In this document: in pieces, positions 1,279-53,872 of the stretch
How positions within the stretch are numbered: position 1 is the first letter of the stretch
Layout of the letters: every line of letters starts with the position of its first letter
Assembly: GCA_030156255.1 (NCBI GenBank)
Contig: JASGMV010000013.1
Location: forward strand, 1 to 64,000
Reading direction: 5' to 3'
DNA from: Desulfovibrionales bacterium
GTDB taxonomy: Bacteria > Desulfobacterota > Desulfovibrionia > Desulfovibrionales > Desulfovibrionaceae
DNA length: 64,000 bases
The notes under the pieces: generated by a model
What the model was told of the DNA's origin: nothing
Seen by the model: the letters and a program-made list of their open reading frames with translations, nothing else
Database searches by the model: none
Translations under genes and position numbers: made by a program

Positions 1279-3876
1279 TCAGGCCACTTTCGTTTCGGCG
1301 CAGGCTCTGCCGCAAAGATGGCGCATCAGCCCTTCCGGGCTCAGCACGACCAGCAGTTCACTCTTTTCCGCGCCCGGCTTCGGTTTGATGATGCTCTCCG
1401 TGTACCCCTTGCCGTCCAAAACGGTATGGGACGTATCCACCCGGGAATAGCAAATCTCGGGGATTTCCCCCAGGGCGTCCACGCAAATCCCCACGATCCG
1501 CTCCGTATCGCCTGTGCCCGCGTACTTGACCAGAATAACCTGGAGTTGGGATTCGTCCTGGGGATACGGCAATCTCATCTCCGAATACAATTCAATGATC
1601 GGAATCACTTCATTGCGGTAGACGGTTTTTCCCCGGACGATTTTCGGGGCGCCGGGGATCTCCGTCACCTTTTCATATCGAACCGCCTCCACGACCTGGG
1701 ACGCCTCGATGCCGAGCCACTTGGGCCCGATGTAAAAAGTGGCGATCTCCACGCAGTCGCTGCCGCCGGTGCGCGCGCGGCCGACCTGCATCGAGGCGTC
1801 CCGGCGGCGGACTTGCCGGGCCTGCTGCTCGCGAACCTCGGCGAGCGGCGCGAACACCAGCCCGATGACGTCGTTCTGATAATCGTCATTGACTTTATAT
1901 TCGCGGTAGCCCGAGCTGGCGCCGCCTCCGACAGCGTAATACTGCCCCTCGAAGACGATGATCCTGGACGTCTTTTCGCCGTTCGGCAAAGACAGAAACT
2001 CGGAATCGATGTCCATGTGGTCGCCGACCCGGAGACTCTTGGCCGTCGTGCTGATGATGGCTCCGGAGCGCTCCACGAACACGCCGAAACACCCTTCGCC
2101 GCCGGGCATGGAATCCTCCAGCATGGCGGCGAACTGCGGCTCGCTGTCAAAGACGATGCCGATCCCCCCCAATACTTTTTTGTGGTCGGCGATGTCCGTG
2201 ATCGAGGCGCTGTACACATACGTATGGCGGCCGCCATAAAGCTCCGTAGCTTCAAACGGCGAGACGGTGTACTGCTGGCTGTCGTGAACCGAGAGCGTCT
2301 GGGCGACCCAGCTGTCGCTCAGCGAAACGCCGACAAGCCCCTGATCGTTCTTTTTCGACACGGCGAGGATCCTGCCTCGCGCATCATAGAGGAACAGCGT
2401 GGTGTACACGGTGTACAGCCCATTGATATATGCAAGAATGTCCGAAATCTCCTCCAGGTCCGATGAAGAAATTTCCGGCTGCGCCAGAATACGCCGAAAG
2501 GCGGACGTCAAGGCCCACCAGCGGCAATCGTTGGCTCGTTCATAGAGATTGCGGTCCATGATGTCGACGGCGAGAGCGGCCTGGAACTCCACGTCGGCGA
2601 GCAAGGCGGAAACCACCGTCTCGTGCAGGTTGCCGATCGATTTTTCGAACACCGACTTGGTGCGGGCGCCGGCGTCCGAAATATTCCACAACAAGACCTT
2701 CGACTGGGCGTCGCTTTCCCGGACGTTGCCGTTCCAGACGGTGCGCTCCAGCTCCGCTTGTATGCGATCCGCCTGGACCGGAATGCTGCGCAACGCCTCG
2801 GAAAAAAGTCTCGGATCGTTCATGACGGCGCTCAGCACCCGGTCCTCCACCCGTAAGCCGAGGTCCCGGCCGCCGTTCTGTTCGAACGCATGCTCAAGAG
2901 GCAACATGGCGTGCCCCAGCCAGCCAAGGCCGAAAAAGCCCTCGTATCCGTTGGTCTCGCAGGTCTTGGCCAAATATTCCCGGCCGGCGAAACGGACCAC
3001 GCGGTAATCCGCGCCAAGCGCAAGTTCGATCCGGGCTCCGATGTGCACCTGGTTTTCGTCCGAACTGGCGATGACCCGGCCGCTCTTGTCGAGAAGAGTC
3101 AGTACGGCCCAGTCGCCCTCGCTCCTCAGTTTCTTGAACACCCCTTCCATCTCGTTCTGGAAACGAAAACACAACGCCAGCACTCCCAGCGGCTTGGAGC
3201 CGGCGTCGTTGGACTCGGTCACCCGATATGCGTAGACGAGCGAATCGCCTTCTCCGGGGAGCAGGTCGGTCTCCCGGAAAATCTCGACATAGTCCCGTCT
3301 GGTCGTCAACGCCTCGGAGATGAGCGGGTCGAAGGAACGGGCCTCCGCCCTGGTCCGATCGAGACGGGCCGCGATTTTGCCGGACGTGTCCATCAACACG
3401 ATGTCGAAATACACCGAATACTTTGCGACGTACTCGTGGAACCGGTCCACGATCGAATCCAGGGCGTCCGCCAGGAAGGAGACGTCTTCGTCCGCGTCGA
3501 GTTCGCCGAACGATCTTAAAAATTCACGGATGTCGTCATCCGTCGCCAGAAATCCGATATCGGCGGTTCGCTCGAACAAATTGCGGATCACGATGTCAAC
3601 CGCCACCTGGGCTTTGGCTCCGATATCCTGAGCCGTCTTTTTGAGGGTCTCCAGCCCCAGTTGCCCGAGAAGCTCCGACGTGAGATTCTGGAACCCCTCG
3701 CGGGTGCCGGTCATGTCCGTGCCCGTGCCGCTCATTTGCCCCAGTATCGTCAGGAGATCCCACTGGCTTCCCAAATTGGACAATTCCTCTCGATAACGCT
3801 CCACGCTCCCCATGTAATGAATGATGCCGCGCAGATCTTCCGGAACTCGAACGTCTCTGTACACGAAGCTGGACAT
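1279..3876 (-). CDS. Soluble tandem Cache-like sensor with C-terminal CheW domain
   Basis: An 865-residue protein ending in a CheW domain (about residues 705-855, from CVEIATFYIGPKWLGIEASQ to LLVVLSPEGLMRHL), the adaptor that docks to CheA and receptors. Ahead of it are two long repeats that look like Cache/dCache ligand-sensing modules: about 75-330 (DTSGKIAARL, DKSGRVIASSDENQ) and about 400-690 (YDARGRILAVSKKND, ERSGAIISTT). Cache domains are normally periplasmic, but I see no signal peptide or membrane helix, so the whole protein should be cytoplasmic. The start is supported by GAGGAGAGG 2 nt before the ATG. No cheA is nearby; flgE lies upstream on the same strand. The CheW call is firm; the Cache call rests on pattern only. 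Confidence 0.8.
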   Translation of the reverse strand: MSSFVYRDVRVPEDLRGIIHYMGSVERYREELSNLGSQWDLLTILGQMSGTGTDMTGTREGFQNLTSELLGQLGLETLKKTAQDIGAKAQVAVDIVIRNLFERTADIGFLATDDDIREFLRSFGELDADEDVSFLADALDSIVDRFHEYVAKYSVYFDIVLMDTSGKIAARLDRTRAEARSFDPLISEALTTRRDYVEIFRETDLLPGEGDSLVYAYRVTESNDAGSKPLGVLALCFRFQNEMEGVFKKLRSEGDWAVLTLLDKSGRVIASSDENQVHIGARIELALGADYRVVRFAGREYLAKTCETNGYEGFFGLGWLGHAMLPLEHAFEQNGGRDLGLRVEDRVLSAVMNDPRLFSEALRSIPVQADRIQAELERTVWNGNVRESDAQSKVLLWNISDAGARTKSVFEKSIGNLHETVVSALLADVEFQAALAVDIMDRNLYERANDCRWWALTSAFRRILAQPEISSSDLEEISDILAYINGLYTVYTTLFLYDARGRILAVSKKNDQGLVGVSLSDSWVAQTLSVHDSQQYTVSPFEATELYGGRHTYVYSASITDIADHKKVLGGIGIVFDSEPQFAAMLEDSMPGGEGCFGVFVERSGAIISTTAKSLRVGDHMDIDSEFLSLPNGEKTSRIIVFEGQYYAVGGGASSGYREYKVNDDYQNDVIGLVFAPLAEVREQQARQVRRRDASMQVGRARTGGSDCVEIATFYIGPKWLGIEASQVVEAVRYEKVTEIPGAPKIVRGKTVYRNEVIPIIELYSEMRLPYPQDESQLQVILVKYAGTGDTERIVGICVDALGEIPEICYSRVDTSHTVLDGKGYTESIIKPKPGAEKSELLVVLSPEGLMRHLCGRACAETKVA

Positions 3877-4617: not shown

Positions 4618-6225
4618 CTAAGTCTTGACGCCCAGCGCGGTCTGGTACATCTCGTTGCTGGTGGTGACCACCTTGGTGTTCGCCTGGAGCGCCTGCTGGT
4701 TGAGAATCATGGAAGCGAACTCTTCGGCCAAGTCCACATTGGAGCTCTCCAGGGAGGTGGACGCGATGGAGCCGAATCCCATATCCCCGCTGCTCGATCC
4801 GTCGGCCAGGGAGTCGTTGGCCGTTCCCACAATGGCTTCGCCCGACTCGTTCGTCGCCAAGAACATGGTTCCCGCCACCCTCTCCAGACCGGATTCGTTC
4901 CGGAACGAATACAAGGCGACCTGGTAAAGCTCTTGTGTGACGCCGTTGGTGTACCGCCCGCTGATGACGCCGTTGTCGTCGACCTCGAACGTCGACAAGT
5001 ACCCCAAGGTATAGCCGTCCTGCGATTGGGTCTGCGTATAGGAAGAGGTGCTGTGGGCCGTAGTCGGACTCGCCTCAAGATACTTCATCTGCAACGCGGG
5101 GATATTGTCGGCGTTGCTGCCGACATCCGCAGCCGTCCCCGTAGCGCTGTAGGAATTTGTCGCCGACCCGATGCCGAAATCCAGGGAAATGGTCTGCGCA
5201 GCGGGTGAACTGCCGTCTGTGGTGAAAGAGGCGGTGAAGGAGGAGACGCCCGAGGACAGGGGCGAGGTGGACCAACTGGAGAGGTCCTTGGCGTCGGCGC
5301 CCTCGCCCAGCGAATAGGCGGCTTGATTCACAAGCTGGCCTTTCGCGTCGAAGGTCAAGATTCCCATTTGCAGCAGGCCGGCCGAGGAGGTTCCCTGAGC
5401 GGCGGCGCGCCCGTCGTTGGCGGGGTCCGTTGCGACCACATACTCGTAATAGATATTGCCGCTGCCGTCGTCCACGTCCACCTTGTCGTAGTAGACGGTC
5501 ACATCGTAGCTGTCGCCGTTCTCGTCGTACACGGTCAGGCTGGAGGAGTAGGAGTAATCGTCTTCGCTCAGGGGAGTGTCGCTGGTCCCGTTGTAGTTGT
5601 TGAACAAGGCGAAAAACGGATTATCCTCGTCCGTGGACTTGTCCTCCTCGTCCGAGTCGAGGTTGGTGATCATGGAAATGGAGCTGGTGGCCTTGGGCTG
5701 GCACATGGCCGCCATCACGGTCGCGCCGGTGGAGTCGGTGGTCTCGGTCAGGTCCAGATGAATCTGCGTAATGGCGCCGGACTCCTCGCCGGTAATCGGG
5801 TCGATTTGGCGCCCCATGAGATGGAGCCCGGAAGAATTGACCAGGTTGCCGTCCGCATCGAAATGCATGTCGCCGGCCCGGGTATAGTACATCGCGTTTG
5901 AAAGGGAGTCGTAAACGCCGAAATATCCCTTACCGCTGATGGCGAGATCCGTGACGTCGTCGGCGGAGAGGATGCTCCCCTGCGTGTATTGGGTCTCAAT
6001 GGCGGAAATCCCCACGCCGTTGCCGATCTGGCTCGGATAGGTGGTTTCCGAGGACATGTAGTAGTTGGCGCCGGTAATCTCCGTGCTCATCAGGTCGCCG
6101 AAAAGCGTTCGGCTCGACTTGAAGCCCACCGTATTAACATTGGACAGATTATTACTGATGACCTGCATGTTGTCCGAGAAGGCGTTCAACGCTGTCGCGC
6201 CTGTGCTCAAAGAAGAAAAGGCCAT
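4618..6225 (-). CDS. flgE: Flagellar hook protein FlgE
   Basis: A 535-residue hook subunit, exported by the flagellar type III system and polymerised into the hook. The N-terminus MAFSSLSTGATALNAFSDNM followed by QVISNNLSNVNTVGFKSSRT is the conserved axial-protein rod domain. The FlgE core follows (SADDVTDLAISGKGYFGVYD), and the C-terminus has the matching axial motif (ASMILNQQALQANTKVVTTS, then MYQTALGVKT). The middle (about 170-400) is Asp/Ser/Thr-rich and variable, as is usual for hook surface domains. Ribosome binding site CAGGAG lies 6 nt before the ATG. A sigma-54 type promoter precedes it. No other flagellar gene is adjacent, so the hook gene stands alone here. Confidence 0.95.
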   Translation of the reverse strand: MAFSSLSTGATALNAFSDNMQVISNNLSNVNTVGFKSSRTLFGDLMSTEITGANYYMSSETTYPSQIGNGVGISAIETQYTQGSILSADDVTDLAISGKGYFGVYDSLSNAMYYTRAGDMHFDADGNLVNSSGLHLMGRQIDPITGEESGAITQIHLDLTETTDSTGATVMAAMCQPKATSSISMITNLDSDEEDKSTDEDNPFFALFNNYNGTSDTPLSEDDYSYSSSLTVYDENGDSYDVTVYYDKVDVDDGSGNIYYEYVVATDPANDGRAAAQGTSSAGLLQMGILTFDAKGQLVNQAAYSLGEGADAKDLSSWSTSPLSSGVSSFTASFTTDGSSPAAQTISLDFGIGSATNSYSATGTAADVGSNADNIPALQMKYLEASPTTAHSTSSYTQTQSQDGYTLGYLSTFEVDDNGVISGRYTNGVTQELYQVALYSFRNESGLERVAGTMFLATNESGEAIVGTANDSLADGSSSGDMGFGSIASTSLESSNVDLAEEFASMILNQQALQANTKVVTTSNEMYQTALGVKT

Positions 6226-14705: not shown

Positions 14706-17039
14706 CTACTCCACCGTGTACGTCACGGCGTCGAGCCGGCCGTCCTGGTCCTGGACCACCAACCGGTGCTCGCCAGGCGTCGGAGGGACGAACAGGGCGG
14801 CGTCCGGGGGGCCGCGCGCGATGAGCCGGCCGTCCTGAAGCCAATACAGCGCAGTGGTCCCGGCCGGCGCCCACGCTTCGAGCCGAATGGATTGGAACGC
14901 CTTGGGCGCCGAGGCCCGGACGTAATACGGCGTTTGCCCGGAAGGCGAGACGATGCGCGGGCCGACGCCGTCCGGCGAGGCTTGGCAATCGGGGTGCAGC
15001 GGCGGAGGCGCGGGGACGCTGAGCCCCACCGAGGCCCACCACGCGGCCAGCCGCGCCGGGTACACGGGCGCCACTACTGCGCTCGTGGCCTTGCCCTGCA
15101 GGCACTCCCCGGACAAGCGCAGGCCCGTGGCCGCATCCACCAGAAACCGTTGGTAGAGATTGCCCGTCGGCAGCCGGCTCACTCCCTCTATGCCCACGGC
15201 CTCGATGGTCTTGGGACAATACGGCCCTGGCGGCAGCCGGCTTTCGTCGCACAGGGTGATGGCGGTCAGCTTCAGCGACGGGTCCGGCGCAAGCGGCGCG
15301 GGGTCGCGGTCCAGCGCCCGCAGCACGTCGAAAAGCAGCGGGCCGGCGCAGCGCGAGCCGGAAATGCCGGGAATGGCCTTGCCTTCCGGGCTGCCCACCC
15401 ACACGCCCACGGCCAGATGCGAGGAGAACCCCACGGCCCAGGCGTCGCGGCGGCCGAAAGAGGTGCCCGTCTTCCAGGCCGCGGGGACCGCGTCCTTGCC
15501 AAGAAACCAGGAATCCGGCAGGTCCGGTCGCCGCACGTCCATGAGCATATCCGTAACCAGCCACGCGGCCTCGGGCGACAGCAGACGCACGCCGGAAGGC
15601 TCCTCCCCGGACGAAGGCGCGGGGTCCAGCCGCAGCGGCCGGTACGCTCCGCCGTCGCCCAACGCCGCATAGAGCCCCGTCAACTCCACCAGGCTCGCCT
15701 GGCAAGCGCCGAGCGCCAACGGCAGGCCGTAATGTTCGGGGGCCGCGAGCGTCAGGCCGCCGCGGGCGAGCAGATCGTGAAAGTCGTCCAGCCCCACGCG
15801 CGCAAGCAGCCGCACGGCCGGAACGTTCAGCGACCGGGCCAGGGCTTCGCGCACCGTGACCCGGCCGTGGTAGGTCTGATCGTAGTTCACCGGAACGTAG
15901 CCCGAGAAATCCGTGGGCGTGTCTAGCACATAGCTGTCCGGAACGATAAGCCCTTTGTCCAGGGCCAGCCCGTAGAGAAAGGGTTTCAGGGTCGATCCCG
16001 GCGATCGCCGGGCCAGAGCCAGATTCATGCGCCCGGCGTATCCGTCCTCCAGATAATCGACCGATCCGGCCAGAGCCAGGATGCGCCGGGTTTTGAGGTC
16101 CGCGACCACGCAAGCCGCATTGCCCACGCCCAAGGCCCGCAGGCCGGGCGCGCGCCGTTTGACGAGCGCTCGCACGGCGCGCTGCATCTCCGCGTCCAAA
16201 GAGGTGCGAATGCGCGGCGCCGGACCCAATTCCTCCAGGGCCATGCGCGCGGCGTGCGGCGCCGCGAAGGGAAACGGTCTTCGCTGAAGCGGCAGCGGCC
16301 GGGTTTCGGCCAGCGCGGCCTCCTTACGGATTAAAAGACCGAGGTCGGCAAACTCACGCAGCAGGCGATCCCGCGCCCGTTTGGCCGCTTCGGGATGGCG
16401 CAGGGGGTCGTAGGCGTTCGGCGCGCGGGGAATGACGATCAGCAACGCGGTTTCGGCCCAGGACAGTTCCTTGGGCTCCTTGCCGAACCAGGCCCAACTG
16501 GCCGCGGCCGCGCCCACCAGGTTGCCGCCGAAAGGCAACAGATTCACGTACCGCTCCAGGATTTCCTCGCGGCGCATGCCCACGGTCATTTGCACGGCCC
16601 GGAAGGCCTCGCGGAGCTTGGACCACAGGGTGCGGGGTTTGGGGTCGGCCAGCCGGGCGAGCTGCATAGGAATGGTCGAGGCGCCGCTCACCACGCGGCC
16701 GGCGCGCAGGTTGGACACGGCCGCCCGCAGCACGGCGACGGGGTTCACGCCCGGATGCAGGCCGAACCAGCGGTCCTCCGAAGCGATGAGCCCGCGCACG
16801 AGTAACGGCGAGACGTCCTGGAGCGGAGTCTGCAGCCGCAACTGCCCGTCGGCCGGAACGAACACCCGCAGCCACTCGCCTCGGCGGTCCGTGACCAGCG
16901 TCGCCGGCTCGGGATGCAGGGCGGCCCGGTCCAGGGGATACAGCGCATCCAGGACGAGAAAAACGGCTGCGCCAAGAACCGCCGCGCCGCCCAGCGCCAG
17001 CAAAAGCCGTGCGCCCCACGCCGCCAACCGCCGCGACAC
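14706..17039 (-). CDS. pbpC: Penicillin-binding protein 1C
   Basis: A bifunctional peptidoglycan synthase of about 777 residues. After one N-terminal membrane helix comes the GT51 glycosyltransferase domain (LIASEDRWFGLHPG, GASTIPMQLARL, LERYVNLLPFGGNLVGA), then the transpeptidase with SXXK (SPGSTLKPF), SXN (ARSLNVPAV) and KTG (AWKTGTSFGRRD). A C-terminal BiPBP-type beta domain ends the protein. I chose GTG at 17039, 7 nt after the alpha-2-macroglobulin stop, with GAGGTAG ahead; a TTG at 17096 would overlap that gene. The pbpC-macroglobulin pair is a recurring bacterial operon thought to link wall repair with protease trapping. Confidence 0.92.
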   Translation of the reverse strand: MSRRLAAWGARLLLALGGAAVLGAAVFLVLDALYPLDRAALHPEPATLVTDRRGEWLRVFVPADGQLRLQTPLQDVSPLLVRGLIASEDRWFGLHPGVNPVAVLRAAVSNLRAGRVVSGASTIPMQLARLADPKPRTLWSKLREAFRAVQMTVGMRREEILERYVNLLPFGGNLVGAAAASWAWFGKEPKELSWAETALLIVIPRAPNAYDPLRHPEAAKRARDRLLREFADLGLLIRKEAALAETRPLPLQRRPFPFAAPHAARMALEELGPAPRIRTSLDAEMQRAVRALVKRRAPGLRALGVGNAACVVADLKTRRILALAGSVDYLEDGYAGRMNLALARRSPGSTLKPFLYGLALDKGLIVPDSYVLDTPTDFSGYVPVNYDQTYHGRVTVREALARSLNVPAVRLLARVGLDDFHDLLARGGLTLAAPEHYGLPLALGACQASLVELTGLYAALGDGGAYRPLRLDPAPSSGEEPSGVRLLSPEAAWLVTDMLMDVRRPDLPDSWFLGKDAVPAAWKTGTSFGRRDAWAVGFSSHLAVGVWVGSPEGKAIPGISGSRCAGPLLFDVLRALDRDPAPLAPDPSLKLTAITLCDESRLPPGPYCPKTIEAVGIEGVSRLPTGNLYQRFLVDAATGLRLSGECLQGKATSAVVAPVYPARLAAWWASVGLSVPAPPPLHPDCQASPDGVGPRIVSPSGQTPYYVRASAPKAFQSIRLEAWAPAGTTALYWLQDGRLIARGPPDAALFVPPTPGEHRLVVQDQDGRLDAVTYTVE

Positions 17040-17046
17040 GGCTCGG

Positions 17047-20000
17047 CTACCTCGACGCCGTGACCCGGACGCTCTCCACCTCGCCCGACCCGACAAGCGA
17101 CGGGTCGTACATGGATTCGGCCCGCACCGGCGGGAGGGTGTAAACGCCTTCGGTCACGGCCCGGAGCAGCACGTAGGCCCGCACCGCCTCGCCTTCGGGC
17201 AAACGGGTGAAGATCAGCACCCTGTCGTCGCGCGTATCCACGTAGTCGGGCTGAAGGGCGCTGGCCTGTTCGACCCACGGCAGGGTCTCGCGCGAAGCGA
17301 GCCGGCCGTTCTCCACTTCCAGGCCGGCGGGGAGCAGGCAGCTCACCACCACGTTGTCCACCGGGCCGGCCTGGCTCTGCGCCGAGACCTCCAAAACCGC
17401 CAGATCGCCCTGCTGGATCGAAAGCGGCGTCAGGGGCCGGCCCTGCTTGTCCAACAGCCGACGCGAGGCCGCAATGCCCGCCGAGACGGGCTGGTAGGCG
17501 TTCAAGGAAGGCGCGCCCCGCGTCTCCAAGCTGTAGAAGATGGTTCCGGGCTCCGGCGTCTTGTCCAGAACCACCGCTACGCCGGCGTCGCCCGGCAACC
17601 CGGCCAGGGACAGCGGCGCGTCCTGATTGAACGCCGCGCGCATCTCGCCTTCCACGAGCGCCTTGCCGGCGTAGACGCCGGCAAGGGACTGCCGACCGTA
17701 CCAGGCGCCAAGCGCCATCAAACCGAAGGCGTTCTCCTGCGTGGAGTACGACGGCCTGGCCTCCAGCATCGACGCCACCTTCGCCGCCAGCTCCGGAACC
17801 ATGGGGTCGGATGGATCGGTCCGGACCAAGGCGGCGAGAGTCAGGGCCGCGTCGCGCAGGGGCGAGCCCAGGTTTTCTCGGTCCTGCTTCCGGGTATCGG
17901 ACGGCGCGTCCAAGGGCGCCAGGCCGGTCAACATCTCCTGAAACACCTTGGTCTCCCCGGCCAAGGCGTAGCTCCCGGCGAGCAGAATCTTGGCCGAACG
18001 GGGAGCGTCGGCGCCGAGTCCGGCCCGCAAAGAGTCCATGGCGCCGCGGTCCGCTTGTCCGGCCAAGGCCAGAACGTAGCAGGCGTAGGACGCCCGGAAC
18101 AACTCCGGCGCTTTGGACCGCCGCCCCGGACGGGTCTCGCCGCGAATGAAGCCAAGCAGCTGGTGCAGCAGAAAATCCGGAACGTGGAACCCGGCCTGTT
18201 TGGCCGATGCCAGGAAGTGGGCTGCGTAGATGGACACGTAGGCGTCCGGCTCTTCCCCTCCCGGCCACATGGCCAACCCGTCCCCGGCCTGCATGGCGCA
18301 CAGCCGGCCGATGGCCGACTGGACCAGGGCCGCGGGATCGGTCTTGTCCAGCAATCCGGGCGCCAGGGCCTTGGCCAAATCCCCGAAGCGGATGAGCGGA
18401 AAGGCCCGGGAAACGGTCTGTTCGGCGCAGCCGTAAGGATAACCCAGAAGCTCGCGCAAATTGTGGGTGAATCGAACCATGGGCAGCCGACCCACGGCCA
18501 GTTCGCGGGACACGGTTCCGGCCGCGTAACGGTCGGCCTGGACCGGAGGAAAAACGGTCGTGCTGTTGTCCAGACTTCCGGCCTGCGCGACGGTCTCATA
18601 GGGCAGCGGCCCCCGCAACGGCAGCTCGGCCGAAGCGCGGCTCGACTCCTTGTTTCCCTCGGCCTGCGCCGTAAGCTTGACCACGCCCGCGCCGTCGCCT
18701 GTCTTCAGCGCAAACCGCACCGTCTCCTGCGTTCCTTTGGCCACGGAAATCGACTGCACAGGGTCCGCCGCAACGGCCGAGCCTTCAGCGGACAACCGCA
18801 CCGTGAAGTTGCCGTCCTCGGGCGTATCGTTGCGCAGGCTGACGGGGATCACCAACTCCTCGTTGGTCCCCAAAAAGCGGGGGAAGCTTGGGGTCAGCAC
18901 CAGGGGGCTCTTCACCCGGACCGTGGTTTGGGACGATCCGAAATCGTTCTTGTCCGCGGACACGGCCATAACCCGCAACGCGCCCTGGAAGTCCGGCACG
19001 TCCACCTTGAAACGCGCAACGCCCTTCTTGTCCGCGGTGAGCACGCCCGAGAAAAAGGCCACGGGTTTGACCCGCCGCAGGGAGTCGGCGTTCATGAACC
19101 GGCCCATGCGCTCGGCCTCGCCTCCGCCGGGCGCGGCCTTGTGGGTCGCAAGGTCCGGCAACAGCAGGGAGAAGCTGTCCATCCAGCGCACGTCCAGAGA
19201 GCGTTTGGCGTAGAAGAAGTCGAAAGGATCGGGCGTCTTCTGGTCGATCAGCTGCAAAATGCCCTCGTCCACGGCCGCGATGGTCACGCGGGCGCCCGGC
19301 TTGGTCCTGGCTTCCATGACCAAGCCGGTCTCGGGCCGAACCTCTTCGGGGGCCGACACCCTTGTCGCCAGCCGGTGGCTCTCCCGGTCCACGAACAAAG
19401 GCGCCGCGCCGATGGCCCGGGCCGCCTCGCCCGGCGCCAGATCGCCTGCCGGCCGAACCAGCGTGGCGCAGACGTAGACGTTGGGCGAGTCCGAAGCCTC
19501 CACCGGAATGCGGACCTCGGCGGTATTGCCCTTGATCTCCACCACCTGAGCGCGCTTGACCCCGCGCTGCTCCACCGTGACCAGGACCTCGCCCGGGAAC
19601 GGCGTGCGCAGCTGCACCCTGGCCGTTTCGCCCGGAGCGTATTCGTTCTTGTCCGGAACCACCTCCAGCCGCGCCGGATTGCTCAGGGCCCAGGGAGAAT
19701 AACCGTAGCCGCCGGCGAAGAACGAAACCTGCGTCGCAGCTCCGTGGGAGTCCCGAAGCACCACGCGGTAGGCGCCCACGTCCGGGGCGGACATCTCGAA
19801 CTCCCCTTGTCCCTGCGTCCCGACCTGCTTGCTCTCCATCAACTTCGCGTCGCGCACGGACTCGTAGCGGAATCCGCCCGAAGGCGTTCGGCGCATGATG
19901 GTGCGCCAGCGATCCTTGTACAACTCCGCCGTGAGCTTGCCCGGCGCGGCCGGCGCTCCGTCCGGCGCGACGGTCGCATACTGGAGCTTGACCTCCTCGC

Positions 20001-22461
20001 CGGGCTGGTAGCCCTGGCGAACCAAACGCTTCAGCCCCACGTACACGGGGTAGGCGTGCGCGACGACCGGCTTCATGGCCGAAACGCCGCGGCCGCCGGT
20101 CTCCAACACCGTAGCCGCGATCTCGGCGCGCAGGGCCGAAGGCGGCTTGAGCCCCGAGGGAATGTCGGCCTCAAAACCGGCGAGCCCCTGGGCGTCCAGA
20201 ACGGCCTCGGCGTCCATGATCTTTCTGGCGTCGAAAACTTGCGGGCCCTCGAACACGTAGTCGGGGAAGGAGGAGGAAGTAAACGTCTCGGGAACAAGGC
20301 GTACGACCGTGGAGACGCGCAAGTCCGCGGCCGGAGCCCCGAACAGGTAGTCGCCCTCCACCTTGAAGCGCAAACGCTTCCCGGCCTCGGCCGCGGATTT
20401 CTCCGGATCGATCCGCACATGGATGCGGTCCGGGATGAAGTCCTCCACCTGAAAACGATATTGCCCTATCGACTCCTCGCCCAACAGAAGCTCCAGGGTG
20501 TGCGTCCCGGTGAGGGCGTACTCCGGAAGGTCGACGGTCAAGGCGGCCATGCCCCGCAAATCCGGCGTCGCGGTGCGCCGGGAAAGCAGCCGCCCCTGAG
20601 GGTCGCGGTGCTCAAGAATCAAAGGCGACGGAACCGGCGCCTTGAGCCGCTCGTCCCGTACGATGGCCATCGCCTCGACCTTTTCTCCCGGCCTGTAGAT
20701 GTTGCGCTCGCCGTACAGAAACGCGCTGTAGCCTTTGCGGGAAATCTCCTGTCCTCCCACGGGCAGGCCGGCCATGTCGTCCTGGAACTGGTCCGGAAGC
20801 AGAAAGGACATGTCCGCCCCTTTTTCGGCCAACACCATGAACGGGCGGCCTTGAGCTTCCTCAGGGGGCAGCTTGATGCGAGTGAGCCCCGAGGCGTCCG
20901 TCCGGCCTTGGCCGATGACCTGATTCTGGTCGCTCAGCAGGGACACGGCCACGTTGCGCAGGGGTTTGGCCTCCGAGAAGGACGCGGCCCAGATCAACAA
21001 TTCGCCGCCGCCTTCCTTGGCCGCCAAGCCGATGTCCGTGGACAGCACCCAGCGCTCGACGCCTTCCCAGGTGTTGGGCAGCTTGGCCGAGACCTTGTAC
21101 AAGCCGCGCCCGCCCTTGCGCATGGCGTCGTTCAGGTCGATGACGGTTCGGGCTTCCTCATTGGGTTTGCCTTGTATCCGAATCAGGCGCGACGCCACCT
21201 GGCCGCCCAGTACATGGGCGACGTCGCCGCTGAATCCTCCGCCGAACACGCTGTAGCCGTAGTTCTGGAAAAGCAGGAAAAGATTGTTGCGGTACACGCG
21301 GTCGATGGACAGCTCCACGCGGTTCACGTTCACGGTCTGCAAGGCCAGGGCCTGCGCCCCTTCTCTGGCCAGGAACATGCCCTGGCTCTGGAAATCCAGA
21401 CGCGGAGGAACATCCGGCATGGACAGCTTGCGCTCGATCCTGTCGTGCAGCGCCGCGCCGTCCTCGGCCGCGAGCCCCTGCGCCACAACCACGGTGTACG
21501 TCTTGCGGGGGAGAAAGGCGCCGCTCAAGGTCACTTCCTGGCCGCTGGAGGCGGTCTGGAAATCCACCTCGGGCGACACCGAAACCGCAGCCGCGGCCGC
21601 AGACGCGGCCACGGGGGAGGAGAAGCGCAAGGTGACCACGCCCTGGCCGGGCTGGCTTTCGGCCTTGGTCTGGTCCAGCCTCAAATCGGGATCAAGCTGC
21701 AGCGGAATGCTCCATTCGTGCGGCTGGCCCAGAAGAACATCCGATCCGGCCGGGGTGAGGCCCTTGTCCACGGAGAGGATCAGCACGCGCTCCTTGGCCG
21801 TCTTGGTCACCGGCGCACTGACGAATCGGGGCGAACGGGTGTTGTAGAAGGTCTCCAGGGACAACTCCACGGTGGCGTTGCGCTCGGGGTCCCGCAGGCT
21901 CAAATGATTCAGCAACTCTTTGGGCGACACGGGTTCGTTGAACTGCAGACGCCCGGCGAGCACCGTTTCCGCACCGCCGCCCGGAGCGGAGCGCTCCTCG
22001 ACGTGCATGGACGCGAGCTCGAAGGGGGTGGTCTCCAGATAATGCGGAGCGGCGTCCACCGCATACGCCGGCGTGTCGAGCGCCTTGGGGTTCAAGCGTA
22101 TTTCGTAACGGGTTCTGGGTTGGAAGGTCTCGTTGGAGCTGAACATGAGGGTGTAGGGATTGAGAAAGCTCCACGCTCCGGGAAGAGCCGGCTCGATGGC
22201 GCCCGCGTCGTCCGGCAGCGCGCCGGTGCGGTTGGCGCCCAGAGGTTCGCTCAAGGCCGCCAACAAATGCTGGTTCTTGGGGCTGTCCAGAATCAGCTCC
22301 TTCACAACGACCGTGCTGGCCGCCGGCGCCGCGGCGTCGCGGGAAAAGCCCCGGCCGCCGCGCACCAGCAGGTATCCCTGCACCAAAACCGCTGCGGCCA
22401 GCACAATGATGGCCCAGTCCTTGCCTTTCGGTTTGAATTTCCCGCCGGATTCCTGCGTCAT
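17047..22461 (-). CDS. yfhM: Bacterial alpha-2-macroglobulin (thioester protease trap)
   Basis: An 1804-residue periplasmic alpha-2-macroglobulin. The reactive thioester motif CAEQ is intact (Cys1345, context YPYGCAEQTVSRAFP), so it should trap attacking proteases covalently. Bait/MG domains fill the first 1200 residues, and the alpha-alpha toroid follows the thioester. Instead of the lipobox of the E. coli homologue it has an uncleaved-looking hydrophobic anchor (WAIIVLAAAVLVQGYLLV, residues 16-33), so it is probably held in the inner membrane by a helix. A Shine-Dalgarno-like GGAGTTGAGG precedes the ATG. It is co-transcribed with pbpC, 7 nt downstream. Confidence 0.93.
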   Translation of the reverse strand: MTQESGGKFKPKGKDWAIIVLAAAVLVQGYLLVRGGRGFSRDAAAPAASTVVVKELILDSPKNQHLLAALSEPLGANRTGALPDDAGAIEPALPGAWSFLNPYTLMFSSNETFQPRTRYEIRLNPKALDTPAYAVDAAPHYLETTPFELASMHVEERSAPGGGAETVLAGRLQFNEPVSPKELLNHLSLRDPERNATVELSLETFYNTRSPRFVSAPVTKTAKERVLILSVDKGLTPAGSDVLLGQPHEWSIPLQLDPDLRLDQTKAESQPGQGVVTLRFSSPVAASAAAAAVSVSPEVDFQTASSGQEVTLSGAFLPRKTYTVVVAQGLAAEDGAALHDRIERKLSMPDVPPRLDFQSQGMFLAREGAQALALQTVNVNRVELSIDRVYRNNLFLLFQNYGYSVFGGGFSGDVAHVLGGQVASRLIRIQGKPNEEARTVIDLNDAMRKGGRGLYKVSAKLPNTWEGVERWVLSTDIGLAAKEGGGELLIWAASFSEAKPLRNVAVSLLSDQNQVIGQGRTDASGLTRIKLPPEEAQGRPFMVLAEKGADMSFLLPDQFQDDMAGLPVGGQEISRKGYSAFLYGERNIYRPGEKVEAMAIVRDERLKAPVPSPLILEHRDPQGRLLSRRTATPDLRGMAALTVDLPEYALTGTHTLELLLGEESIGQYRFQVEDFIPDRIHVRIDPEKSAAEAGKRLRFKVEGDYLFGAPAADLRVSTVVRLVPETFTSSSFPDYVFEGPQVFDARKIMDAEAVLDAQGLAGFEADIPSGLKPPSALRAEIAATVLETGGRGVSAMKPVVAHAYPVYVGLKRLVRQGYQPGEEVKLQYATVAPDGAPAAPGKLTAELYKDRWRTIMRRTPSGGFRYESVRDAKLMESKQVGTQGQGEFEMSAPDVGAYRVVLRDSHGAATQVSFFAGGYGYSPWALSNPARLEVVPDKNEYAPGETARVQLRTPFPGEVLVTVEQRGVKRAQVVEIKGNTAEVRIPVEASDSPNVYVCATLVRPAGDLAPGEAARAIGAAPLFVDRESHRLATRVSAPEEVRPETGLVMEARTKPGARVTIAAVDEGILQLIDQKTPDPFDFFYAKRSLDVRWMDSFSLLLPDLATHKAAPGGGEAERMGRFMNADSLRRVKPVAFFSGVLTADKKGVARFKVDVPDFQGALRVMAVSADKNDFGSSQTTVRVKSPLVLTPSFPRFLGTNEELVIPVSLRNDTPEDGNFTVRLSAEGSAVAADPVQSISVAKGTQETVRFALKTGDGAGVVKLTAQAEGNKESSRASAELPLRGPLPYETVAQAGSLDNSTTVFPPVQADRYAAGTVSRELAVGRLPMVRFTHNLRELLGYPYGCAEQTVSRAFPLIRFGDLAKALAPGLLDKTDPAALVQSAIGRLCAMQAGDGLAMWPGGEEPDAYVSIYAAHFLASAKQAGFHVPDFLLHQLLGFIRGETRPGRRSKAPELFRASYACYVLALAGQADRGAMDSLRAGLGADAPRSAKILLAGSYALAGETKVFQEMLTGLAPLDAPSDTRKQDRENLGSPLRDAALTLAALVRTDPSDPMVPELAAKVASMLEARPSYSTQENAFGLMALGAWYGRQSLAGVYAGKALVEGEMRAAFNQDAPLSLAGLPGDAGVAVVLDKTPEPGTIFYSLETRGAPSLNAYQPVSAGIAASRRLLDKQGRPLTPLSIQQGDLAVLEVSAQSQAGPVDNVVVSCLLPAGLEVENGRLASRETLPWVEQASALQPDYVDTRDDRVLIFTRLPEGEAVRAYVLLRAVTEGVYTLPPVRAESMYDPSLVGSGEVESVRVTASR

Positions 22462-22652
22462 GCCTCAACTCCAGGCTGAAAAGTGATCGAACGAACCGCT
22501 CCATCAACCTGTACACGATCCGCTTGCGTCCCGAAAGGTCCGAAGAATAAATTCGGCGTGTCAACAAAACTCCGCTCCCCCTAATATTCTGGACCAACAA
22601 GCGAGCCCCGTAGTATGGGGTGAGAAAACCTGAACGACTTCGAGGAGGAATC

Positions 22653-34355: not shown

Positions 34356-34380
34356 GGGGCGGGCCGCAAAGGCCCGCCCC
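34356..34380. other. Intercistronic GC hairpin between hcp and ferredoxin
   Basis: GGGGCGGGCC pairs perfectly with GGCCCGCCCC around loop GCAAA (10-bp stem), 12 bp after the hcp stop. There is no U-tract, so it is more likely an mRNA stability or processing element than a full terminator. Confidence 0.6.
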
Positions 34381-34394
34381 ATCGGAGCAATCTT

Positions 34395-35144
34395 ATGGAA
34401 AAAAGACTGGTGATTCATATCGACGAAGACAAGTGCGACGGCTGCGGGCAATGCATTCCCGGTTGCCAGGAAGGCGCCCTGGCCATTGTGGACGGCAAGG
34501 CCCGGCTCGTGAGCGACGTGTATTGCGACGGACTCGGCGCCTGTCTGGGAGAATGCCCCAACGGCGCGCTGACCCTTGTTGAGCGGGAAGCCGCGGCCTT
34601 TGATGAAGCCGCCGTGGAAAAACGCCTGCAGGCGCTGCAAGGACCGCCTCCGACGGCGGCCCCCCTGGCCTGCGGTTGTCCGTCCAGCGAAATAAAAACG
34701 CTGACGCCCTGTCAGCAGGCCAACCGGCCGGCCCGGAACACCGACGGCTCGGCCCTCGGGCATTGGCCCGTCAAGCTGCGTCTGGTCCCGCCCGAAGCGC
34801 CGTTCCTGCAAGGCGCCGATCTTCTGCTGGTCTCGGACTGCGCTCCCGTGGCCATGGGAGACTTCCAGACGCGGCTGGCCGGGAAGGCCGTGCTGATAGG
34901 TTGTCCGAAATTCGACGACACGCAGCTCTATCTGGACCGCCTGACGGCCATTTTGCGTCGGGCGAAGCCCTCCTCCCTCACGGTGATGGAGATGGAGGTT
35001 CCCTGCTGCTCGGCCTTGGGGCGCATCGCGGCCAAGGCGCTGGAGCTGTCGGACGCGGATATCCCCGCCAAGCGGCTGGTCGTCGCCCGCAACGGGGAGC
35101 TTGGAGAAGTTGCGCTGGGAAACGGCGAGGGCAAACGGGGCTGA
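34395..35144 (+). CDS. Ferredoxin-like electron-transfer partner of Hcp
   Basis: A 249-residue iron-sulfur protein. The N-terminal ferredoxin domain carries two clusters' worth of cysteines (DKCDGCGQCIPGCQEGAL and YCDGLGACLGECPNGAL). After a linker with further cysteines (LACGCPS, TPCQQ) comes a domain with LLVSDCAPVAMGDFQTRL, AVLIGCPKFDDTQLY and MEVPCCSALGRI, features shared with Hcp-associated proteins in sulfate reducers. It probably feeds electrons to Hcp. GGAG is 7 nt before the ATG; it is separated from hcp only by the hairpin. Confidence 0.85.
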   Translation: MEKRLVIHIDEDKCDGCGQCIPGCQEGALAIVDGKARLVSDVYCDGLGACLGECPNGALTLVEREAAAFDEAAVEKRLQALQGPPPTAAPLACGCPSSEIKTLTPCQQANRPARNTDGSALGHWPVKLRLVPPEAPFLQGADLLLVSDCAPVAMGDFQTRLAGKAVLIGCPKFDDTQLYLDRLTAILRRAKPSSLTVMEMEVPCCSALGRIAAKALELSDADIPAKRLVVARNGELGEVALGNGEGKRG

Positions 35145-38909: not shown

Positions 38910-41900
38910 CGGTGCAGCCAGACCCGAAGCAAGGACAAGAGCTTGCCGTTTTCCACCGGCTTGGACAGATAATCGTTGGCCCCGGCCTCGATGCACTTGG
39001 CCTTGTCGCCTTTCATGGCCTTGGCGGTCAAAGCGATGATCGGCAGATCCTTGTAGGCCTCGGCCGCCCGAATACGACGCATGGTTTCAAACCCGTCCAT
39101 CTCCGGCATCATGATGTCCATCAGCACGATGTCCACGTCTTCGTACTGCGCGAGCTTGCGCAAGGCCTCTTTGCCGTTTTCCGCTTCGCGCACCTTCATG
39201 CCCTTGGCTTCGAGCACGCTGCCCAAGGCGAAGACGTTGCGCAAATCATCGTCCACAATCAGCACGGTCTTGCCCTGGAAAATCTCTTCGGGATCGTGGA
39301 AGGTCCGGGGCGTCTTCCGCCGCAGCCCGGGCGCCTTCTCCTGCATCTGGTGGAGGAACAGCGTCGCCTCGTCCAAAAGCCTCTCCGGGGAGCGCGCGCC
39401 CTTGACGATGATGGAGCTGGCGTTGCGGGCCAGCCGGGCCTCCTCTTCGCGGGTCAAATCCCGACCCGTGTAAACAATGACGGGGGCCTTTTGCACATCC
39501 TCCCGCGCGGCCATGGCCTCCAGCAAATCGAATCCGGACATGTCGTTGAGCCCCAAGTCCATGATGACGCAGTCGAAAGCCTCCCGGGACAGCGACTCCA
39601 AAGCCTCTCGCCCGGACGCCACGGCCGTAGCCGCCACGCCGTCGGAAGCGACGAGCTCCAGAATGCTCCGGCGCTGGGCTTCGTCGTCCTCCACCACCAG
39701 CAAGGTCTTCACCGGCTTGTGGATCGCATCCTCGATGCGCCCGAAGGCCGCCTCGATATCCTCCGGCTCCACGGGCTTCGCCAGATACCCCACCGCCCCC
39801 ATGCGCAAGGCCCGCCAGGGCGATTCGTCCGCCGAGGAAATGAAATGCACCGGGATGCGCCGGGTGCGGGGGTTTTCCTTGAGCCGCTCCATGACCGAAA
39901 ATCCATCGACGCCGGGCAGTTTCACGTCCAGCAACATCCCGTCGGGTCGATGGAGGTCCGCCAGATGCAGGCCTGTTTCACCATCATGGGCCAGCAGCGT
40001 CTCGAAGCCTCGCCGGCGCGCCAAATCCTCCAAAAGCTCGGCGAAGACCGGATCGTCCTCCACGATGAGCAGCAAATTGGACGATCGCTCGGAAACGGGA
40101 TCGGCGTCGCGCTCCGCGCCGTCCTTTGAAGGCGGCTCCAAACCCGAGCCGGCTCGGTCCGTGTCGGCCACAGCGCCCACATCCGCGACGAAGCCGGTCT
40201 CGGAAGCATCCCCGGCGTCTTCCTCGCCGTCCATCAAGCGCTCCGGCAAACACAGAGTGAAGACGGAGCCCTTGCCCACTTCGCTTTCCATCTGGATCTC
40301 GCCGCCCAACAACCTGGCGAATTCTCGCGAAATCGACAGCCCCAGGCCCGTGCCGCCGAACTTTCGGCTAATAGCGCCATCGGCCTGCCGGAAGGCCTCG
40401 AAAATGACCTCCCGCTTCTCTTCGGGGACGCCGACGCCAGTGTCCGCCACCGCAAAGACGACGGCGACATCGGAAGACAGCGTCTCCGTGGCAAATCTTT
40501 GATCCGGACCGGGCCGGCCGGCCACAAGGGAAATCTCACCCTGCTCCGTGAACTTGAATGCGTTGGCGAGCAGGTTGCGCAGAATCTGCGTCAACCGCTG
40601 CGAATCCGAGTACAGGAATTTAGGGCAGTCCGGCGATTGGCGCACGGTGAGCGCGAGGCCTTTGCGCTCCGCCTGGGGTTCGAACATTCGGCGCAGGGCC
40701 TCAAGCAGCTCCGCCACGTCCACGCGGCTGATGCGGACCTCCATCCGGCCGGACTCCACTTTGGCCAGGTCCAGAATTTCATTGATCAACGTCAGCAAAT
40801 CCTTGCCGGAGCCGTGCACGGTTTGAACGAACTCCACTTGCTTGTCCGTCAGGTTGCCTTCCTGGTTCTCCGACAGGATGCGGGAGAGAATCAGAATGCT
40901 GTTCAGAGGGGTGCGCAGCTCATGGGACATGTTCGCCAGGAATTCGGACTTGTACCGGCTGGCCCGCTCCACGGCGTCGGCCTGCTCCTGAATCTCCTCC
41001 TGCGCTTTCTTGAGCGCCACATTTTTATTCTGGATGGCGTTGTGCTGCTCCTCCAAAACCTGCGCGCGCTCCTCCAACTCCTCGTTGGCCGTCCGCAGTT
41101 CCTCCTGCTGCTGCTGCAACTGCGACTCGGAGGCCATGAGCGCCTTGGTTTGTCCGGCCAGTTCCTCGTTGGTGACGCGCAGTTCCTCCTGCTGCTGCTG
41201 CAGCGTCGACTCGGACTCCCTCAGGGCCTTGGCCTGCTCCTCCAACTCCTCGTTCTTGAGCCGCAGTTCACGCTGTTGCTCGCGTAGCGCCTCGGCCTGC
41301 CGCCGGGTCTGGTCCAGCAGGTCCTCCACCTGCAGGCGGGAGCCCGCGACCTGCAGGGCGATGGCCACGGACTCCAGGTTCTCCTCCATGAAACTCCGCG
41401 CGGACTCCGGAAACGGCTGCATCGAACCGATCAGCAGCACCCCCTCCAACCCCTCACGGTAAACCAGCGGGGCGGCCATGAAATGGGCCGGCGTCGCTTC
41501 GCCGGCTCCGAAGTTGTATTTCGGCGCGAGCTGCTCCGACACGTCGTGGAAAAAGATGATCCTGCGCTCCCGGCCGGCCTGCCCCACCAGCCCCTCTCCA
41601 GGTTCGAACTCCTGGAAGCCGCCGCCGCGGTAGCTGAAGGCGTGGCCGACCGCAAACCGCAGACGGCCGGATGGGTCGCTGAGATACATGGCCCCAAGCT
41701 GGGCCTCGAAATAATTGACCAAAAACGTGACCACCCCCAGGCTCAACTCCCGCAAATCCTGCTGGCCCCGGAGACGGTCGTCCAGCCCGGCCTTGCCGGC
41801 GCGAATCCAGTCCTGCCGGCGCAAAGTGGAGACCATATGGTCCAGAGCCCGGGACAAGTCGCCGACCTCGTCGTGCTGGTCCATCTCCAGGCTCGCGTTC

Positions 41901-52864: not shown

Positions 52865-53872
52865 TCATCCCCCTATGGCGCTCATCCTAGAATCGCAGTA
52901 CCCGCCCGGTCCGCGCGCGGCCATGAGTTCGCTGCCCATCGGCTTGGTCTTCAACGCCCCCTGCATGATGCGCTGGACGCTCCGGTCCCCGAGCTTCGGG
53001 TGGCGCAAGGCCCGTTTCAAGTCGAAAGTCCTTTCGGAAAACAGGCACGTGCGAAGTCTGCCGTCCGCCGTCACGCGCAGCCTGTTGCAGAGTCCGCAAA
53101 AATGGTCGGTGAGGGGAGCGATGACGCCGAACCGGCCCTTGCCGCCCGCAATCTCGTAAACGTCGGCCGGCCCGCTGGAAGGGCCGCGCCGGTCCAAGGG
53201 GCGAAGCTCGGCGAGCTTTTTCGCCCGCTCCAGTATATCCGCCGCCGGCCAGAGATGCTCCTTGGTCCACGTCGTGCATGGCCCTATGGGCATGAGTTCG
53301 ATGAACCGCACGTCCAGGGAATGCTCCGCCGCAACGCGCAAGAAACTCTCCAGTTCGTCGTCGTTGACTCCCCGCAGCCCCACGGCGTTGATCTTGACCC
53401 GAACGCCCAGCCGCAAGGCCTCGTGAATGGACTCCAACACCGCGCCCAACAGGTCCCTGCCGGTAATGGCGCGAAATTTTTTCGCATTCAGCGTGTCCAG
53501 GGAGACGTTCACACGGCGGAAGCCGGCCAAGGCCAAAGAGGCCAGGCGCGGCGCCAGCATGGAGCCGTTGGTCGTCAAGCGGACGTCCAGGGCGGGGCGC
53601 ACGGCGAGCAGCCTTTGGACGAAATCGATACAGCCCTTGCGCACCAGCGGTTCGCCCCCGGTCAGGCGGACTTTGGAAATCCCAAGCTGTTGCGCAAGAA
53701 AAACCAGGCGCTGCATTTCTTCGAAACGCAAAATCTCTTGGTGCGGAATGAATTGCGGATTTTCCCGTACGCAATAACGGCACGCCAAATTGCAACGGTC
53801 CGTCACACTGAGCCGCAAATAGCTGACGCGCCGACCCCGGCCGTCCACCAAACCGGTCTCCATGCTGTCCAC
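52865..53872 (-). CDS. moaA: GTP 3',8-cyclase MoaA
   Basis: A 335-residue radical SAM enzyme making the molybdenum-cofactor precursor from GTP. The SAM cluster motif is DRCNLACRYC, followed by VRLTGGEPLVRKG. The second [4Fe-4S] site is HFCGLCNRLRVTADGRLRTC, and the protein ends in the required double glycine (SAIGG). I chose GTG at 53872, with GGAGG just ahead; ATG at 53863 is an alternative. No other moa/moe gene is adjacent. Its product would serve molybdenum or tungsten enzymes such as formate dehydrogenase. Confidence 0.94.
   Translation of the reverse strand: MDSMETGLVDGRGRRVSYLRLSVTDRCNLACRYCVRENPQFIPHQEILRFEEMQRLVFLAQQLGISKVRLTGGEPLVRKGCIDFVQRLLAVRPALDVRLTTNGSMLAPRLASLALAGFRRVNVSLDTLNAKKFRAITGRDLLGAVLESIHEALRLGVRVKINAVGLRGVNDDELESFLRVAAEHSLDVRFIELMPIGPCTTWTKEHLWPAADILERAKKLAELRPLDRRGPSSGPADVYEIAGGKGRFGVIAPLTDHFCGLCNRLRVTADGRLRTCLFSERTFDLKRALRHPKLGDRSVQRIMQGALKTKPMGSELMAARGPGGYCDSRMSAIGG

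Follow-up and report, generated by a model that had tools for sequence, protein, structure and literature searches.

A predicted cytoplasmic tandem dCache-CheW protein from a Desulfovibrionales bacterium and its ties to nitrogen-fixing bacteria

The gene and its surroundings

The window, by which is meant the whole stretch of 64,000 nucleotides analysed here (positions 1 to 64,000 of contig JASGMV010000013.1, Desulfovibrionales assembly GCA_030156255.1), carries near its start a gene for a protein in which two tandem dCache sensor modules are followed by a CheW domain. The gene and the parts of its product are laid out as follows.

1279..3876, minus strand: the tandem dCache-CheW gene, 865 aa from ATG
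3712..3876, minus strand: N-terminal helical region, residues 1-55 (model and hydropathy), with no signal peptide visible
2872..3711, minus strand: first dCache module, residues ~56-335, with a long helix at 56-111 (model; DctB match at Z 18.3)
3559..3585, minus strand: signature RNLFERTAD, residues 98-106, each position at least 95% conserved among 78 fused proteins
2710..2871, minus strand: helical linker between the modules, residues 336-389 (AlphaFold model)
1837..2709, minus strand: second dCache module, residues ~390-680, with a long helix at 390-454 (model; DctB match at Z 18.0)
2527..2556, minus strand: second signature DRNLYERAND, residues 441-450 (family sequence comparison)
1759..1836, minus strand: low-confidence linker, residues 681-706 (pLDDT below 50 at 685-691)
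1303..1758, minus strand: CheW domain, residues 707-858 (Pfam and fold match), containing E730 and R754

Downstream, after a gap of about 40 bp, comes a glycosyltransferase-like gene on the same strand (51-1238, minus), which could be co-transcribed with the dCache-CheW gene. Some 740 bp upstream, again on the same strand, is a hook protein-like gene (FlgE_D2, Flg_bbr_C; 4618-6225, minus); no hook-like neighbour was noticed by eye at the 7 other fused copies of the class. Farther along, the window holds two very long frames that overlap on opposite strands, one of 2015 aa on the plus strand (16432-22479), which has no Pfam match at 1e-5, and one of 1804 aa on the minus strand (17047-22461), as well as an 84-bp tandem repeat of 2.4 copies (41068-41269) within the frame of a 1388-aa hybrid sensor kinase.

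Across the 80 family loci described below, MCPsignal domains were found in 2 of 135 immediate neighbours (among the matches listed, 25 of 156 families), a set without neighbours longer than 800 aa and without one piece of a family gene that is split; on this count a conserved che operon was ruled out. With three genes taken per side, no neighbour family apart from the nif-type ones recurs widely across lineages, and the dCache-CheW gene is mostly an orphan.

Folds and cellular location

The first-pass annotation had placed two Cache-like repeats, at residues 75-330 and 400-690, ahead of a CheW domain, and had proposed structure prediction and fold search as the means of checking them. An AlphaFold model of the full protein, built with 78 family sequences, reached a mean pLDDT of 87.3 and a pTM of 0.83 (the N half, modelled separately, reached pLDDT 93.1) and, together with the fold searches and the Pfam CheW match, bore out this arrangement. 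Both repeats are Cache-type and are complete dCache modules, with modelled limits (~56-335 and 390-680) close to those first given. In a fold search of the model, the N module aligns with DctB and further dCache sensors at Z 18.3, a match that Foldseek also gave, while the C module matches DctB at Z 18.0; because each half matches a DctB-type dCache at Z ~18, each repeat amounts to an entire double Cache. Homology between the two modules (HHalign 98.9%, E 2.8e-17, 23% identity) marks them as an internal duplication. Among their fold neighbours are sensors of dicarboxylates, amino acids and citrate.

By Pfam, dCache_1 scores 33.3 bits in the window protein, under its cut-off of 45, with the best stretch at 108-274, and Cache_WalK scores 28.2 bits at residues 476-538, slightly above its cut-off of 27. 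Among five relatives scanned, two exceed the dCache_1 cut-off (L031 with 47.4 and L101 with 57.4) and three fall below it (L063, L100 and L038). A sequence search of solved structures with the whole protein matched CheW chains alone (E up to 1). The CheW domain at the C-terminal end proved to be a genuine fold, with PF01584 at residues 711-853 scoring 62.4 bits (cut-off 23.5) and the modelled part matching solved CheW structures at Z 16-17. Domains that accompany or replace CheW in other chemosensory proteins were sought by Pfam in the window protein, with no match at E up to 1 for MCPsignal, for Response_reg (the CheV receiver) or for CheR.

The claim that the protein has neither signal peptide nor membrane helix also held, as judged by hydropathy in the window protein and in 107 family rows. 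Neither feature is visible in the window protein, the best 19-residue mean among its first 60 residues being 0.33. No N-terminal anchor appears in the family, where the same 19-residue maximum is at most 1.07 across the 107 rows, three of which have no found start (L036, L045b and L079); the comparison covers the relatives as read from the start nearest to that of the window protein. Over the whole protein, the window's maximum is 1.56, at residues 421-439 within the helix of the second dCache, and a maximum of at least 1.6 occurs in 23 of the 107 family rows, always at residue 217 or beyond. A hidden membrane anchor was ruled out as not seen by hydropathy. A CheW domain at the C-terminus needs the cytoplasm. 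By hydropathy the window protein lacks the extracytoplasmic placement beside a membrane helix by which dCache sensors are also recognised; the protein is dCache by fold, not by location.

The family and its nitrogen-fixation link

A profile built from the sensor part, run against genome contigs, returned at least 567 encoded relatives. The best 80 loci, ranked by similarity to the window protein, were read, and 77 of them encode a full-length CheW-fused protein, a share in which fused forms are favoured because the ranking is by likeness to the window protein. In all 77 full-length proteins a tail of 161-214 aa follows the sensor, and the CheW region of the window protein matches that tail in 77 of 77 (domain E 1.7e-5 or better). 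The other three loci are one split by a stop (L045) and two that run off their contigs (L048 and L096). The split copy, at 4992-7604 of L045 (Glaciecola), is a CheW-fused gene broken by an in-frame TAG. With full-length fusions in 77 of the best 80 loci, a unique or recent fusion was ruled out, as were plasmid-borne copies, for which there was no match at E 1e-40. The genera represented include Desulfatibacillum, Seleniivibrio, Allochromatium, Rhodocyclus, Zoogloea, Thauera, Sulfurimonas and Malaciobacter, and the CheW-fused relatives span Pseudomonadota, Campylobacterota, Deferribacterota and Desulfobacterota.

Within the window's own class, a family match was found in 59 of 348 genomes, the positives including partial matches (e.g., G014, G224 and G331). 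Eight fused copies were found there, namely the window gene and seven loci that were read; at 20 further loci (L118-L137) the protein is CheW-less, ending no more than 4 residues after the sensor match, and the remaining copies of the class were assigned by open-frame length only. One CheW-less paralog, of 683 aa, belongs to the window's own genome (L118, the same locus as L031) and lies at 7881-9929 of L031, on another contig than the window gene.

A tree of 106 sequences, 85 fused and 21 CheW-less, gathered the CheW-less sequences into a single clade (support 1.0), showing that the sensor is able to function in the absence of CheW, and grouped the window protein with the fused proteins of its own class and with Desulfatibacillum (support 0.998). 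The tree is midpoint-rooted and does not fix which form, fused or CheW-less, came first. Left out of it were the stop-split L045, the fragments L036, L048 and L096, and L119, L121 and L126, which come from the same genomes as L032, L033 and L034. Sensor and CheW distances are correlated (r 0.81 over 1500 random pairs), as expected from one old fusion; the mean pair distance is 3.03 for CheW and 1.56 for the sensor, a rate of change roughly double in CheW.

Among the neighbours scanned were NifT, NifZ and proteins of nitrogenase type. By tblastn with nif references, core nif markers are no more than 5 kb away at 13 of the 80 loci (the best 80 of at least 567), set against a chance rate of 1-3% that is an assumption; these loci are L046, where the match sits at the locus edge, L050, where NifX scores 97.3 bits against an NCBIfam cut-off of 112, L060, L063, L067, L069, L071, L075, L077, L082, L085, L098 and L100. 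NCBIfam names nif markers above cut-off at L063, L082 and L060. At L063 the order on one strand is nifN, a NifX-associated gene, fdxN, the dCache-CheW gene, iscA, nifU and nifS, with 15 bp between fdxN and the dCache-CheW gene and with nifN, the NifX-associated protein, fdxN, NifU and NifS all above their NCBIfam cut-offs; the genes from fdxN to nifS (fdxN-dCache-CheW-iscA-nifU-nifS) form an apparent operon. At L100 the dCache-CheW gene stands between nifEN and nifHDK, as seen by eye and by cross-match. Two conserved proteins recur beside the dCache-CheW and nif genes at L100 (2939-4722), L077, L082 and L085, one of ~320 aa and one of ~250-275 aa, the latter HEAT-repeat-like by eye; the product of L100 3901-4722 has no NCBIfam match at 1e-10.

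No nif gene lies close to the copy in the window. Against the nif references, the window gave two weak matches, a ferredoxin-like one at 34365-34580 (31% identity) and a NifB-like one at 53279-53818 (24% identity), both at least 30 kb from the dCache-CheW gene, and nifH is found in this genome on two contigs as separate loci (L161 and L172; contigs 45 and 101). No nif neighbours were seen in the stretches read at the seven fused loci of the class, nor at the CheW-less loci, where the stretches of L118-L137 extend only ~1.5 kb per side; the CheW-less paralog at L031 has no nif reference match within the 18 kb read.

At the level of genomes, with nifH called by the TIGR01287 cut-off, the window's class has nifH in 54 of the 59 genomes with a family match and in 107 of the 289 without one, a difference with p 1.5e-15 by Fisher's test and 2.4e-8 by a Mantel-Haenszel test stratified by genus. 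In the largest genus of the class the figures are 11 of 12 positives and 7 of 67 negatives. A second taxonomic family, that of L054 (Rhodocyclus tenuis), has nifH in 28 of 35 positive vs 79 of 214 negative genomes (p 2e-6), where 2 of the 35 (G457 and G458) are weak partial matches, without which the count is 27 of 33. Relatives thus tend to occur in nitrogen-fixing bacteria, sometimes inside nif gene clusters, suggesting that what the protein would sense is, in many of its hosts, connected with nitrogen fixation.

Promoters were searched with the sigma-54, sigma-28 and NifA consensus patterns. In the 350 bp upstream, a sigma-54-like site is present for 12 of 77 family genes and for 7 of 370 genes beside them, a difference with p 5.7e-6; 6 of the 7 positive neighbours are at nif-marker loci. 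Sigma-54 serves flagellar genes too in many bacteria, so these sites do not single out nif. Upstream of the window copy there is no good sigma-54 site, the best matching 7 of 11 positions. Flagellar sigma-28 control was ruled out (2 of 110 upstream regions vs 0.32 in shuffles, and none for the window), and NifA-type upstream sites (14 of 77 vs 33 of 370) were rejected as weak.

Proposed function and relation to known systems

The reading that best accounts for these data, with a probability of about 0.6, is a cytoplasmic tandem-dCache sensor docked through CheW in the CheA/CheW ring. One or both dCache modules would probably bind a small intracellular molecule or molecules, the C-terminal CheW would dock the protein into the ring of the chemosensory array, and ligand binding would change the output of the kinase CheA with no membrane receptor of the protein's own. 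The part of this supported by computation is the architecture, the folds, the lack of a visible anchor, the conserved family and the presence of CheA in every host genome tested. CheA (PF02895) is above cut-off in 43 of 43 genomes with fused loci, drawn from 45 loci of which L097 was left out and two (L055 and L107) share a genome; the same search found it in 7 of 14 well-known genomes used as a control, making it a common but not a universal trait. The window's genome has 17 CheW-domain and 3 CheA matches. Weighing against the reading are the faster divergence of CheW, the scarcity of the R62-equivalent arginine in the family (see below), the CheW-less clade, a nif link that some hosts lack, and the absence of nif genes and of a good sigma-54 site near the window copy. 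CheW adaptors normally occupy rings alongside receptors, so the dCache-CheW protein is more likely to feed a further signal into an array already present than to take the place of receptors.

What such a sensor would report is proposed with less confidence. Its most likely role would be to signal some internal condition connected with nitrogen fixation, such as nitrogen status, redox or energy, which would let nitrogen-fixing cells adjust where they swim. The broader form of this idea, in which a widespread cytoplasmic tandem dCache family reports a nitrogen-fixation signal to the array, diazotrophs steer by the state of nitrogenase or of nitrogen, and the CheW-less clade passes the signal to another partner, is a tentative one, with the odds leaning somewhat against it. 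If causal, the nif link would connect nitrogen fixation to motility by a direct path open to testing; CheA has been tied to nitrogen metabolism in Azospirillum (PMC8561660).

The strongest alternative, which is quite possible though short of an even chance, is that the nif link reflects lifestyle only, versatile free-living bacteria with larger genomes keeping both nitrogenase and many sensors, with a general metabolite being sensed. It gains from the fused-type genomes, where nifH is above cut-off in 29 of 43 and not in 14, two of the latter carrying partial matches (G363 and G389), so that the nif link is not universal, as well as from the lack of nif genes near the window gene and its seven fused relatives in the class, and from the class association being weaker once the largest genus is removed (p 0.045). 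Lifestyle accounts poorly, however, for the 13 of 80 loci at which the gene lies physically within nif clusters, including the apparent fdxN/iscA/nifU/nifS operon, and for the persistence of the association within the largest genus among genomes of at least 3.0 Mb, where nifH is present in 9 of 9 positives vs 2 of 13 negatives.

A second alternative, unlikely on present evidence, takes CheW to be a docking tether or an array-shaping part and not a signal relay, comparable to the divergent CheW FrzB. E. coli CheW has an R62-E38 salt bridge, and an R62A protein keeps its affinity for partners and is impaired in chemotaxis (PMC3828127). The equivalent of E38 is E in 71 of 85 family rows vs 13 of 15 reference CheW domains, and that of R62 is R in 16 of 85 (lost in 69) vs 14 of 15; the references are 14 domains from the window's genome plus that of E. 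coli, gathered by an E. coli CheW-seeded search that favours canonical ones. With the R62 equivalent mostly lost, many family members may, judging from these residues, dock without the standard signal relay. Against a tether, the window protein retains the pair as E730 (E38) and R754 (R62) and has no deletion resembling the 20-residue loss reported for FrzB (PMC6952110), and the conservation of the sensor modules is well above what a mere tether requires. More doubtful still is a main job outside chemotaxis, with dCache acting on a metabolic partner, as it would have to in the CheW-less clade, and CheW only positioning the protein at the cell pole, which would suit the CheW-less clade (21 sequences, support 1.0) and the nifH of 54 of 59 class positives, mostly of the CheW-less form (assigned partly by open-frame length only), but not the retention of CheW in fused relatives of the four phyla named above.

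The proposed cytoplasmic, CheW-docked sensor can be set beside several known systems. DctB-type sensor domains are extracytoplasmic. They (PDB 3e4o, 3by9 and 2zbb) share the fold of each module at Z ~18, and differ in being histidine-kinase sensor domains, one per protein, where here two stand in tandem in the cytoplasm. Passages of PMC8694187 and PMC10767990 likewise describe Cache domains as periplasmic or extracellular sensors. The soluble chemoreceptors TlpD and McpB are alike in cytoplasmic sensing for a chemosensory pathway, but they are chemoreceptors, whereas the dCache-CheW protein is without an MCPsignal domain. FrzB is alike as a CheW-type protein off the canonical adaptor pattern; it is small, sensorless and without the CheA-binding segment, which is present in the window protein (PMC6952110 for FrzB). 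No account of a Cache-CheW family was found in the open-access literature, and the available portions of PMC10767990, PMC7184735 and PMC11940527 hold no description of one.

The closest published precedent is CheWS of Treponema denticola, in which CheW is fused to a SAM-sensing CheR-like domain, as described in PMC10653840, where CheW is said to have long been viewed as a linker. Like CheWS, the dCache-CheW protein would be a soluble CheW-fused sensor placed in the array for an intracellular molecule. The two differ in that CheWS has an N-terminal CheW and a CheR-like sensor and belongs to spirochetes, while the family described here has a C-terminal CheW and two dCache modules and lives in other hosts. 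The same paper mentions 30 undescribed CheW architectures, naming CZB and PAS fusions, and these (Fig. S10, PMC10653840) may include the tandem dCache-CheW form. The dCache-CheW family would work like CheWS, yet it lacks the features that define CheWS, and with four intracellular Cache subdomains and a CheW output it would link intracellular sensing directly to the array in many genomes.
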